From: Thermoplasmata archaeon
Lineage (GTDB): Archaea; Thermoplasmatota; Thermoplasmata; Thermoplasmatales; Thermoplasmataceae
Direction: 5' to 3'
Assembly: GCA_021790415.1 (NCBI GenBank)
Contig: JAJYDZ010000140.1
Coordinates: 1 to 5,628 of the forward strand
DNA length: 5,628 nt
This document shows, one piece after another, positions 2,532 through 5,628 of this stretch; within the stretch, counting starts at the first letter, position 1; each line of letters opens with the position of its first letter. Below the pieces are notes generated by a model that was not told the DNA's origin, searched no databases, and saw only the letters and a program-made list of their open reading frames with translations. The translations under genes and the position numbers were made by a program.

Positions 2532-2619
2532 TTATGTTCAGGGGAGCCATTGGCTGAGAGGATCAGAAGATCGACCCTTTGAACCTGACCCGGGTAATGC
2601 CGGCGGAGGGAGAAGATGG
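2532..2619 (+). promoter_or_regulatory. TPP riboswitch (THI element)
   Basis: All conserved blocks of the thiamine pyrophosphate aptamer are present in order: AGGGGAGCC (2540–2548), CTGAGAGG (2554–2561), GACCCTTTGAACCTGA (2573–2588) and GGGTAATGCCGGCGGAGGGA (2592–2611). Stems I can draw are: P1, 2532–2539 with 2612–2619 (eight pairs with one mismatch and two wobbles); P2, GGG 2541–2543 with CCC 2575–2577; P3, AGCC 2545–2548 with GGCT 2552–2555; a variable hairpin, GATC 2561–2564 with 2569–2572; P4, CCT 2584–2586 with AGG 2607–2609; P5, CCGG 2590–2593 with 2600–2603. CTGAGA and the P4/P5 internal loop are the TPP pyrimidine- and diphosphate-binding parts in known structures. No terminator hairpin with a T tract follows, which favours control of translation. 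The 3' strands of P4 and P1 contain GGAGGG and an ATG, which start a small leader frame. Confidence 0.95.
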
Positions 2620-2693
2620 ATACAACATACGATATCGTAAAAAGAAGTTTGTCTGTAATAGGTTTATTTTATGGAGGTATTCTATATGAATAA
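2616..2693 (+). CDS. Putative 25-codon leader peptide inside and after the TPP riboswitch
   Basis: An ATG at 2616 lies 5 bases after GGAGGG (2605–2610), a strong SD that is also the conserved 3' strand of the TPP aptamer (P4). The ATG itself sits in the 3' strand of P1. The frame runs 25 codons and ends with TAA at 2691–2693, overlapping the permease start ATG (2686–2688) by 8 bases. The peptide begins MDTTYDIVKRS and has a hydrophobic second half (LSVIGLFYGGIL). I recognise no family. The placement suggests regulatory translation: with TPP bound, both SD and start would be hidden; without it, ribosomes would translate the leader, pass over the permease SD and restart at the overlapping ATG. 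This is inference from layout. The frame may instead be accidental, with GGAGGG conserved only for aptamer folding. Confidence 0.45.
   Translation: MDTTYDIVKRSLSVIGLFYGGILYE
2628..2639 (+). repeat. 12-bp perfect palindrome between aptamer and permease
   Basis: TACGATATCGTA is fully self-complementary. It lies between the aptamer and the permease SD, inside the leader frame. As RNA it could only form a small 4-bp hairpin with a 4-base loop; as DNA it could be a binding site for a dimeric protein. Either role is speculative, and a 12-bp palindrome can occur by chance. Confidence 0.3.
2673..2678 (+). promoter_or_regulatory. Ribosome binding site deciding the permease start
   Basis: GGAGGT stands 7 bases before the ATG at 2686. 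An in-frame ATG at 2671 overlaps the SD itself and has no SD of its own, so 2686 is preferred. No clear anti-SD (ACCTCC) occurs in the aptamer or linker, so direct masking of this site by the riboswitch is not apparent. Confidence 0.75.
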
Positions 2694-3909
2694 ATATAGA
2701 ACATCCCTCCTTGCATCAACATCCTTTGCATTTATTTTCTGGGGGATAGTTGGCACAATTGGGCCACTTGCTGCGTCTGGGTCCATAATAGGAAATCTCA
2801 ATCACACAGGAAAACTAATATTTCTTTTAATCGGCCCACTGGTTGTTCCGGCAGGTAATCTCTCCATGGGATTTCTTGCCGATGTCATTGGCAGAAAGAA
2901 GGTTTTTCTTATTACCATGTCATTTTATACCATAGGCATTATCGTTATAAGCCTGAGTTATAACGTTCTTCCTTTGCTGCTAGGTCTCATACTGGCAGAG
3001 TTTGGAGTTGGTGGAGAAGAACCATCGTCACTTTCTTTAGTTGCTGAGAACACAGATGCAAATAAAAGACCATTCTGGTTAACTATATTGACTAATATGG
3101 ATAACATAGGAAGCGCCCTCATGGCAGGTCTCTTTTTCATAGTGGTTAACAATCTTCAGGATAGAATTGTGCTACTGATCGGGTCATTGTTACTGATTTT
3201 ATTTATTGTTCTTCTAAGACGAGTCATTCCCGAATCTCAGATGTGGCTTAAGGAAACAGGAAACGCAGATGAAAGCCAAATAGAGAGAGAAAAGATTGAC
3301 CTGAAAGATGACGGCGAAAGCATTTCGCAGCCAAGGCTTATTTCTTCTTTTATTTTTCTTGGAGTGATTGCAGTATCACAGTATCTCACATTTGGACTTA
3401 TGGCCTATGTTCTGGCACCAATAGAGTTTCCTAGTAGCTCGGAGGATGATGTGATTATATTTGTGGCACTGTTAGGTTCTTCAGTTGCAGGCTTTATTGC
3501 TGCTCCACTTATTTCCAGAGGTAGGAAGAACTATACATTGCTTTCATTCCTATTTGGAACAGTTACAATGGTTGCGATTTTCATAATGGTACCATATCTA
3601 ACTAACATGCTTATATTTCTACCACTACTTTTCGCAAACATGTTCATGAGTGAATTTGCCTATGCTTCAAGATCTGTTCTTGAACCAGAACTTTACGGTA
3701 CAAGAAGCAGATCATCACTTATTGGCCTTACCAGACTATGGCCAATGATAGCCTACCCAATATTTACCTTTTACACCAGCAGCCTTAATTTATCTGACTT
3801 TTTACTCATCAATGTTATACTCTGGGCTATGGGATTGTGTGCATCTGTTTACTGGTTCTACTTCGGAATAGAGACAAAGAATGCCAATATAGATTATAAT
3901 ACCATTTAA
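2686..3909 (+). CDS. MFS permease under TPP riboswitch control, probable thiamine (precursor) transporter
   Basis: This 407-residue protein of the major facilitator superfamily has twelve predicted helices, about 9–30, 44–66, 73–91, 95–117, 138–156, 161–180, 219–243, 255–276, 283–302, 307–327, 345–365 and 370–394, with the usual long charged central loop (181–218). MFS motif A is in the helix 2–3 loop (GFLADVIGRKK, residues 62–72, with Asp66, Gly69 and Arg70). Helix 4 has GVGGEEPSS, and helix 6 is followed by IPESQMWL (181–188), like the PESPRWL motif of the sugar/organic-ion porter branch. Family alone does not fix the substrate. The TPP riboswitch upstream strongly suggests uptake of thiamine, a phosphate ester or a precursor; MFS proteins beside TPP riboswitches in Thermoplasmatales have been proposed as thiamine transporters. 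The start at 2686 is chosen over 2671 because GGAGGT lies 7 bases before it. The frame is intact and of normal length. Confidence 0.9.
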   Translation: MNKYRTSLLASTSFAFIFWGIVGTIGPLAASGSIIGNLNHTGKLIFLLIGPLVVPAGNLSMGFLADVIGRKKVFLITMSFYTIGIIVISLSYNVLPLLLGLILAEFGVGGEEPSSLSLVAENTDANKRPFWLTILTNMDNIGSALMAGLFFIVVNNLQDRIVLLIGSLLLILFIVLLRRVIPESQMWLKETGNADESQIEREKIDLKDDGESISQPRLISSFIFLGVIAVSQYLTFGLMAYVLAPIEFPSSSEDDVIIFVALLGSSVAGFIAAPLISRGRKNYTLLSFLFGTVTMVAIFIMVPYLTNMLIFLPLLFANMFMSEFAYASRSVLEPELYGTRSRSSLIGLTRLWPMIAYPIFTFYTSSLNLSDFLLINVILWAMGLCASVYWFYFGIETKNANIDYNTI

Positions 3910-4032: not shown

Positions 4033-5214
4033 ATGGGAGAATTAATGGCATCGATCGTAGAAATGGTGGACAATTATGGGAGGTACAGGAGAGATGTCCT
4101 GAATCTTCAGGCATCGGAGAATTTTCTCTGCTCTCACGTGAAGATGGCATTGGGAACAGATTTAGGTGGGAGATATTCCCATGTTATGCCAGATGGGAGA
4201 AATGCCTATGGCGGAACTGAGATGATAGAGAATATTTTCAACGAAACAGAGAGAAACATAAAAACATTATATGGTTCTAAGTTTGCGGAAATAAGACCAC
4301 TGGGTGGACATATTGCAGCGGAGATCAGTTTACTGAGCACAATTCAAAAAAATGATACAATAATGGCTATAAGTGAAGAATACGGTGGATACACAGGATA
4401 CATGGAAAACTATCTTCCGAATATGCTGGGCTTCAAGACTGAATTCATCCCTTACAGTGAGGAAAAACAGGAAATTGACTACGAATCTTTTGAAAAGAAG
4501 GCAACGGAGATTAAACCCAAGGCAGTTGTGCTTGGTCAATCTTTTTTTGTAAAGCATTATGATCTCGGTCGAATAAGAGAAATTTGCGATAAAACAGGTT
4601 CAAAGCTCCTTTATGACGGATCACATGTAATGGGACTCGTAGCTGGTAAGAAATTTCAGCCAGACGCACTTAAATATTCAGACATTTTATTCGGTTCAAC
4701 TCACAAGACATTCTTTGGCCCGCAGGGAGGAATTGTTCTCACAAACAATGAAGAATTAGCTGAAAAAATAAACGAAAATGTTGTTTGGAAAACAATGGAT
4801 AACTATCATCCGAATAGGATTGCCGCTCTTGGCATTGCTGCCCAGGACCTCATAACATTCGGAGAAAGTTATGCAGGATGGATTGTTTCAAACACATATA
4901 CTCTTGCCAGAACGCTAAACGATTCAGGTATTGCAGTAAAATATGCGCCATGGTATTCTGAAAGTCACCAGATAATTCTCTCAAAGGAAAATTTTCCGAA
5001 ATATGGTGATTTCAAAACAATAAGCAAGAGACTAGAAAATAATAGAATAATCGCAGATACGGAAGGGAGACTCGGTACAGCGGAAATTACAAGAATTGGG
5101 CTAACAGACATGGTTACCCTGGGAGAGGTAGTCTCCGATGCCATAAAGGGAAAAGATGTAAGAAGCAGGATCACTGAAGTCCTGAGAAATTCAAGTATAA
5201 AATTTTGCAGGTGA
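4033..5214 (+). CDS. Serine hydroxymethyltransferase-like PLP enzyme with altered catalytic residues
   Basis: This 393-residue protein has the fold-type I PLP layout of serine hydroxymethyltransferase (SHMT, GlyA family), which moves a one-carbon unit between serine and glycine using a pterin cofactor. Landmarks are LQASENF (25–31), RYS–YGGTE (47–63), RPLGGHIAAE (88–97), LYDGSHVMGLVAG (193–205, with Asp195 and His198 against the cofactor), STHKTFFGPQGG (222–233, Lys225 as the PLP lysine) and TRIG (353–356, Arg354 likely for the substrate carboxylate). Several SHMT signatures differ. The catalytic Glu of the YAEGYPG–RYYGG motif is His50 with a one-residue insertion, the first Tyr of YYGG is Ala58, the Ser of the SGS/SGH loop is Gly91, and GPRGG is GPQGG. 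It is shorter than bacterial SHMT (about 415–420). It may be a divergent archaeal SHMT, an aldolase or another amino-acid enzyme. The start at 4033 fits a TATA-like box 25 bases upstream; an ATG at 4045 is the alternative. Confidence 0.85.
   Translation: MGELMASIVEMVDNYGRYRRDVLNLQASENFLCSHVKMALGTDLGGRYSHVMPDGRNAYGGTEMIENIFNETERNIKTLYGSKFAEIRPLGGHIAAEISLLSTIQKNDTIMAISEEYGGYTGYMENYLPNMLGFKTEFIPYSEEKQEIDYESFEKKATEIKPKAVVLGQSFFVKHYDLGRIREICDKTGSKLLYDGSHVMGLVAGKKFQPDALKYSDILFGSTHKTFFGPQGGIVLTNNEELAEKINENVVWKTMDNYHPNRIAALGIAAQDLITFGESYAGWIVSNTYTLARTLNDSGIAVKYAPWYSESHQIILSKENFPKYGDFKTISKRLENNRIIADTEGRLGTAEITRIGLTDMVTLGEVVSDAIKGKDVRSRITEVLRNSSIKFCR
5209..5214 (+). promoter_or_regulatory. Ribosome binding site of the CBS gene overlapping the upstream stop
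   Basis: AGGTGA contains the TGA stop of the SHMT-like gene and lies 4 bases before the ATG at 5219. It matches the archaeal anti-SD. A ribosome ending on the upstream gene would sit on this site, so the two genes are probably translationally coupled. Confidence 0.65.
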
Positions 5215-5218
5215 GATT

Positions 5219-5628
5219 ATGAAGACAGTTGAAGATATAATGACAGAGAATCCATTGACAATTGATGAGGAAACAACAGTATCTCTAGCACTGAACAGAA
5301 TGAGGGATAACAAAATTGCTCAGCTACCAGTGGAATCCGAAAGAAAATATATGGGAATGATCAGCTATAGAGATATATTGAGAAGGAGGAGCATTCATCT
5401 GAATTCCAAAATAAAGAATTTTGTGACGAAATCTCCAGAACTCAAAAGAAGAGATACCCTTGAAAGGGCAGTAAATCTACTTAGAGACAGTGCAATGGGA
5501 GCCCTACCTGTGGTAGAAAATGGAAAGATTGCAGGTGTAGTTTCCAGAACAGACATAATAAAGAACATTGAGGAATTCGATGAACTCAAGGGTGTTCAGA
5601 CTTTTGATCTAATGCAGGATGCTTATTT
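5219..5628 (+). CDS. CBS-domain protein, C-terminus beyond the window
   Basis: The first 136 codons are present and the frame is open at the right edge. Two CBS motifs can be read. The first (residues about 1–58) has VEDIMTENPLTIDEETTV, ALNRMRDNKIAQLPV and MGMISYRDIL. The second (about 61–120) has VTKSPELKRRDTLERAVNLL, MGALPVV, and GKIAGVVSRTDIIK. A third may start at FDLMQDAY, since VxDLM-like words open such domains. CBS pairs bind adenine nucleotides (AMP, ATP, S-adenosylmethionine) and usually act as regulatory sensors; stand-alone CBS proteins of two to four repeats are common in archaea and their targets are mostly unknown. The gene starts 4 bases after the SHMT-like stop, with its SD over that stop, so it is co-transcribed and may regulate, or respond to, that enzyme. 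A catalytic or DNA-binding domain after the window end cannot be excluded. Confidence 0.85.
   Translation, partial: MKTVEDIMTENPLTIDEETTVSLALNRMRDNKIAQLPVESERKYMGMISYRDILRRRSIHLNSKIKNFVTKSPELKRRDTLERAVNLLRDSAMGALPVVENGKIAGVVSRTDIIKNIEEFDELKGVQTFDLMQDAY

Follow-up and report, generated by a model that had tools for sequence, protein, structure and literature searches.

A TPP riboswitch aptamer of Thermoplasmata carries the Shine-Dalgarno sequence of a short leader ORF that overlaps the start of a predicted transporter gene

How might a TPP riboswitch act on a transporter gene when the first start codon after its aptamer belongs to a different and far shorter reading frame? The question is raised by a contig of a Thermoplasmata archaeon, from a group of archaea that favour acid, analysed here over its whole 5,628 nucleotides (the window), in which a 25-codon leader ORF stands between a TPP aptamer and a permease gene. 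A 2002 survey of THI elements reportedly included Thermoplasma elements. Among the literature matches listed, no title or abstract dealt with an archaeal TPP riboswitch with a leader ORF, or with the way in which an archaeal TPP riboswitch acts on expression.

The sole Rfam match in the window is the TPP aptamer (THI element, RF00059) at 2530-2628 on the forward strand, which spans model positions 1-105 and passes the family threshold (72.5 bits against a gathering score of 54.3; E = 2.1e-13). Its core contains the Shine-Dalgarno (SD) sequence GGAGGG at 2605-2610 (+), termed SD1, and an ATG follows within about 15 nt, at 2616. This ATG opens a frame of 25 codons and a TAA stop (2616-2693, +; stop at 2691-2693), which encodes the peptide MDTTYDIVKRSLSVIGLFYGGILYE in another frame than that of the permease. 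The leader stop overlaps the permease start over 8 nt, ATGAATAA (2686-2693, +), and the permease has an SD of its own, GGAGGT (SD2, 2673-2678, +), 7 nt ahead of its ATG at 2686 and inside the leader frame. A preliminary description made from the DNA letters had named all of these elements, and all are present. Two of its structural statements are narrowed by mapping the Rfam structure on the window. GGAGGG had been assigned as a whole to the 3' strand of stem P4; AGG at 2607-2609 is paired there, with 2584-2586, and G2606 faces G2587 in a non-standard pair. The leader ATG had been placed in the 3' strand of P1; this strand is GAAGA at 2612-2616 (+), paired with 2535-2539 with a single G-G mismatch (2536/2615), and of the ATG only the A at 2616 lies inside the modelled stem.

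G2606 stands where the RF00059 consensus has u, and the G-U pair that the consensus places at the inner end of P4 (2587/2606) is a G-G in the window and, by a scripted count, in 87 of the 90 MFS-linked elements introduced below. The aptamer appears to trade this pair for a full SD. The 16S rRNA 3' end of genome G059 (presumed C. divulgatum) reads ATCACCTCCT; GGAGG is complementary to its core CACCTCCT and is thus able to serve as an SD.

The gene behind the leader (2686-3909, +) encodes an MFS permease of 407 aa (PF07690 and PF00083) that is 97% identical to an MFS transporter of Cuniculiplasma divulgatum (P0001). The window itself most likely stems from Cuniculiplasma. Since the ten closest database proteins (P0001-P0010) begin with MNKYR or MNRYR, as encoded from 2686, we take this ATG as the permease start; a further in-frame ATG is found at 2671. 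Solely from the riboswitch we infer a thiamine-type substrate. Downstream of the permease the window holds an SHMT-like gene (4033-5214, +) and a gene for a CBS-domain protein (5219-5626, +). Upstream of the riboswitch lies a piece of an IS1634-type transposase (1177-1617, -; NF033559 at 77.5 bits, below the cut-off of 100), and open frames on the same strand (1684-1950 and 1954-2130, -) may be further pieces that extend it perhaps to 2130.

A TATA-like stretch, TTTAATAAT (2509-2517, +), is found 13-21 nt upstream of the aptamer as a candidate promoter and differs from the exact motif YTTAWA. Within the order-wide set described below, YTTAWA occurs at -60 to -15 from the aptamer in 46 of 102 non-redundant elements, compared with 21.5 +/- 3.3 in shuffled sequences, and peaks 16-25 nt upstream. 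A transcript start is expected near the 5' edge of the aptamer, and the peak just upstream argues for aptamer-containing transcripts. The same motif is present 18-40 nt ahead of the transporter start in none of 30 leader elements, which says little alone against a transcript start downstream of the aptamer, since the shuffles predict only 1.3.

Relatives of the locus were gathered at several levels. One scan of genome contigs returned 49 loci encoding relatives of the permease, and a TPP element scored above threshold in 44 of the 48 such loci scanned. An order-wide search located elements in 86 of 117 genomes, at 123 places, all of which were analysed with 17 class-level places; together with the window these form the main set of 141 TPP elements. 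A class-wide search detected elements in 192 of 400 genomes, at no fewer than the places listed, and 40 further places were taken up from it. In the main set an MFS transporter is the downstream gene in 90 cases (89 from the order, the window included, and one from the class), and a second gene cluster follows in 43; one element (L111) has no gene in reach. For two members of the second cluster the score against TIGR01254, the thiamine ABC substrate-binding family, exceeds the cut-off. In the window itself a thiamine linkage would lie in an MFS permease with a predicted substrate.

The preliminary description had noted that a G in place of the consensus T/U completes the SD. This G is found before nearly all MFS transporters: GGAGG is present in 88 of the 90 MFS-linked elements. 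In an actinobacterial class, by comparison, the second position is G in 3 of the 30 elements that were scored (31 elements examined among the places listed, one lacking a core match, with only the start codons after the core tabulated). An ATG stands 3-10 nt past the aptamer's GNAGG in 79 of the 90, against 23.8 +/- 4.2 in shuffles. Two architectures share this arrangement. In 39 of the 90 the start codon served by the aptamer SD is the regulated transporter's own (the direct architecture), and in 49, as in the window, it opens a leader ORF of 12-42 codons, the exception being L153 with 6. The remaining two (L084 and L100) have T at the core and unsure frames and were omitted by hand from the leader test, as was L091, whose TTG lies in the transporter frame and is therefore direct; L193, on the contig of L042, was counted as a leader element after its core had been identified with a stricter pattern. 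On a tree of the transporter proteins (88 rows, built by a quick method and with some long branches) the leader state needs six changes, at least three of which are forced by starred branches. Direct transporters have a median of 36 residues ahead of an anchor Trp, against 19 in transporters behind a leader, in two sets that differ in paralogue mix. The leader is kept perhaps because it frees the transporter N-terminus from codons fixed by the P1 and P4 strands of the aptamer.

The position of the leader stop was compared with chance after the 49 leader elements had been reduced to 30 representatives at 80% identity, with the transporter start picked by SD and codon, blind to the leader. The stop falls at -9 to +21 nt of the transporter start in 25 of the 30, compared with 5.1 +/- 2.0 in dinucleotide shuffles and a maximum of 12 in 2000 shuffles. 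Read in its two remaining frames, the same DNA has a stop there in 1 and 3 of the 30. Four other window sizes gave 20-28 of 30 against 4.0-7.9, so that an excess was obtained with each of the five window sizes. Overlaps of exactly -4 or -1, described as the distances most often found between adjacent genes in archaea and bacteria (PMC10666635), make up 10 of the 30, and overlaps of 7-17 nt, the window's type included, make up 14; the 8-nt overlap recurs at identical length in L104 and L108. Among the five misses, L153 is a true exception, with a 6-codon GTG leader that ends 19 nt upstream of the transporter start, and its group mates L187 and L193 comply. For L085 and L097 an alternative transporter start does overlap the leader stop, and for the Ferroplasma-type elements L177 and L191 the assignment of the transporter start is unsure. 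Five Ferroplasma-type elements (L009, L191, L196, L200 and L201, the last from the genome of Ferroplasma acidarmanus Fer1) have ACG at the position of their relatives' ATG with the leader stop adjoining, and their true start is either a GTG upstream or this ACG.

This anatomy is real and far from chance. Since both the leader ATG and its overlap with the transporter start are found repeatedly within the order, the idea of an aptamer-borne SD with a coupled leader passes the comparative test that the preliminary description had proposed. The locus is probably an OFF switch of translation in which a relay ORF transmits the control, a reading based on the anatomy, its conservation, the non-random stop, the neutral-looking peptide discussed below and the interchange with the direct architecture; TPP binding, masking, leader translation and coupling are the biochemical steps that it would entail. 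The transcript would begin near the aptamer. When TPP is scarce or absent, SD1 (2605-2610) and the ATG at 2616 would be open and ribosomes would translate the 25-codon leader. Termination at 2691-2693 would leave them on the permease ATG and next to SD2, which they would also keep accessible, and they would reinitiate at 2686. With TPP bound, P4 and P1 would form and bury SD1 together with the initial A of the leader ATG; the leader would stay untranslated and few ribosomes would reach the permease. The leader peptide would be devoid of function, with only its start, open frame and stop place being kept.

Some observations run counter to this relay. With a strong SD2 of its own, the permease might not need the leader for initiation, 5 of the 30 representatives miss the stop placement, and overlaps of 7-17 nt are less canonical than -4 or -1. 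If the permease were initiated independently from SD2, a good SD at good spacing, the leader would be a matter of chance or a mildly inhibitory uORF. We regard this as quite unlikely, because the stop placement and the open frame lie far above both the shuffles and the other frames, the ATG placement after the aptamer SD is far above chance, and an inhibitory uORF would have no need of a stop at the transporter start. A further point against the relay is the sequence TCCCTCC at 2704-2710 (+, codons 7-9 of the permease gene), which in predicted folds offers a candidate classical SD/anti-SD switch in this genus; the preliminary description had seen no apparent anti-SD, a statement that does not hold. 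TCCCTCC is complementary to SD1 over exactly 7 nt (GGAGGGA) and to SD2 over 5 nt (GGAGG). In the free minimum-energy fold it pairs with the aptamer strand 2605-2611. With the aptamer enforced, CCUCC at 2706-2710 pairs with SD2, and AGG 2607-2609 and A2616 are paired as well. A three-way switch could therefore be proposed in which TCCCTCC, with TPP, sits on SD2 and blocks the permease and, without TPP, sits on the freed aptamer strand and releases SD2, the leader ORF being incidental. The 7-mer is present also in L104 and L095. Against such a switch, which we hold to be unlikely, it occurs in only 2 of the 30 representatives and is absent from the close relative L108, and SD2 is mostly paired in the unconstrained fold anyway; the open leader frame and its end at the transporter start would be left unexplained. 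Across the 30 leader representatives the longest complement to the aptamer strand averages 3.9 nt against 3.83 nt in shuffles, and that to SD2 4.63 against 4.45 nt, with 2 of 30 at p <= 0.05, so that neither a conserved antisequestor nor a conserved sequestration of SD2 was retained for the leader group. SD2 accessibility in the MFS leaders is 0.29 against 0.34 shuffled, and 6 of the 30 fall in the lowest tenth. E. coli thiM exemplifies the classical SD/anti-SD TPP riboswitches, which exert translational OFF control through a separate expression platform. The switch proposed here is alike in its OFF control and unlike them in that no conserved alternative pairing, and hence no separate platform, rises above chance across the leader group, the candidate being confined to the window and two representatives. 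The earlier statement that there is no separate expression platform agrees with the group result and is uncertain for this species. The SD2-anti-SD hairpin may add to the relay, as a ribosome that has reached the leader stop (2691-2693) would sit on SD2 and melt the hairpin.

The leader peptide itself separates the relay from two further explanations. Codon changes in 16 equal-length close pairs out of 20 (the other four pairs and L193 were left out, and pairs within a group are not independent) amount to 98 nonsynonymous and 31 synonymous, a nonsynonymous share of 76% against 77.5% expected without constraint. The synonymous bias that had been predicted is thus absent. The window and L104 differ by two leader changes, both nonsynonymous, and the peptides of close relatives can be dissimilar, beginning with MDTTYDIVKRSL in the window and with MEISYTEIEVVI in L001 and L108, at equal length and with an equal stop. 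The changes in the peptide look neutral, and frame, stop and mostly length appear to be kept. A functional or sensing peptide, which an open frame with an SD might have encoded, is rejected on these counts as highly improbable. We likewise reject a programmed frameshift at the overlap that would fuse the leader to the permease and so produce an N-terminal extension as in the direct relatives. Their longer N-termini (subject to the difference in paralogue mix) and a minor fusion product described for M. tuberculosis ppe2 (PMC11260477) would speak for it; yet among the 25 coupled leaders the frame relative to the transporter is one of the two shifted frames in 14, the other in 10 and the same in one, so that no single shift serves, and with the unconstrained look of the peptide a fusion is very hard to credit. 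A neutral-looking peptide in either relative frame fits a ribosome relay. Overall, the interpretation given in the preliminary description is supported in part: the leader-coupled aptamer switch passes the comparative test, with its predicted synonymous bias lacking and an anti-SD candidate added, and binding, masking and reinitiation would be the steps that make it work.

A second group of leaders is found at class level, in largely G+C-rich genomes (L204-L262), where the core has A or C and the start stands mostly 7 nt past GNAGG. Eleven of the genes belong to the thiamine-binding-protein cluster, in a clustering that covered the first 141 elements, before the 40 were added. The leaders are mostly of 12-15 codons, end in an exact NTGA in 15 of 29 representatives, and often fold into a hairpin near the gene start; SD2 accessibility is 0.42, above the 0.34 of shuffles. 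The overlap was observed in 27 of the 29 against 21.9 +/- 2.1 in shuffles, in a test that skipped 22 of 57 elements (17 with T at the core, two without a start, two without a long gene and one without a core). These leaders were considered as equal proof and set lower, because in G+C-rich DNA a short leader often runs into the following gene even after shuffling; we regard the group as suggestive. Among the T-at-core elements (L208, L209, L223, L229, L236, L239 and similar), a start codon after the aptamer is lacking in 10 of 18. L208, the one member scanned, precedes a protein with weak HypE, ThiL and SelD matches, all below cut-off, and these elements perhaps serve another thiamine gene with another platform. 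Six other elements (L124, L174, L175, L188, L195 and L214) have A at the second core position. Their SD resembles GGCAGGAG or GGTAGGA, and their start codon is directly followed by ATCCTGC or ATCCTAC, which makes a classical SD/anti-SD platform a candidate here.

The closest described parallel is the B12 riboswitch of M. tuberculosis ppe2 with its uPPE2 uORF (Kipkorir et al. 2024, PMC11260477), where the downstream gene needs uORF translation and receives its ribosomes mainly through termination-reinitiation where the uORF stop and its start overlap. Both loci place a riboswitch over a short uORF with such an overlap. The ppe2 case concerns another riboswitch class in a bacterium and was demonstrated by experiment, whereas the present TPP aptamer is archaeal and known from sequence alone; here the aptamer's own conserved strand is the SD of the uORF, and the overlap recurs in 25 of 30 non-redundant relatives. 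Our 39 direct elements are of the kind known as TPP aptamers that mask the RBS directly, the purine-rich 3' part of the aptamer core being the RBS and a start codon following within 15 nt (Barrick and Breaker 2007, PMC2258182). They differ from the window, where the codon that follows opens a leader ORF instead of the regulated gene, so that a rule based on the distance to the annotated gene would not score the window as direct and would misfile such switches. Short overlaps are described as coupling translation in an archaeon, and in E. coli the last 15 nt of the upstream gene suffice (Huber et al. 2019, PMC6728339; Huber et al. 2023, PMC10666635); coupling is reported to require short overlaps in gene pairs of H. 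volcanii and E. coli (PMC10666635). Those studies, in the parts available, treat native gene pairs, unlike the present locus, where a riboswitch is involved and the upstream member looks like a peptide-neutral relay. Short ORFs as suppliers of ribosomes are mentioned in a 2025 review on translational coupling, in which the word riboswitch does not occur (PMC12548453).

We lean slightly towards a general strategy of Thermoplasmata in which ribosomes land on the aptamer itself and are handed on to the transporter by a relay ORF whose peptide is neutral. Such a strategy would be old, would have switched back and forth with direct initiation, and would have arisen or spread in two families, namely MFS permeases, with leaders of mostly 12-42 codons, and thiamine ABC binding proteins, whose leaders mostly have 12-15 codons and frequently overlap the gene as NTGA. 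If true, it would extend riboswitch-uORF relays from the bacterial case to an archaeal order. The mechanism is concrete and testable, and the sister elements, in which the aptamer SD serves either the transporter or a relay ORF, supply a natural control set.

Beyond these genomes, two scans of viral contigs returned no relative, and a plasmid search with 2500-2720 was uninformative: all of its 126 records fell short of 80% coverage of the query, and the five of them listed matched only a short aptamer stretch. Permease relatives with TPP elements were also found in contigs titled archaeon, Nitrososphaerota and Thaumarchaeota (L037, L038 and L043), and L043 looks direct, with an ATG immediately after GGAGGGA.
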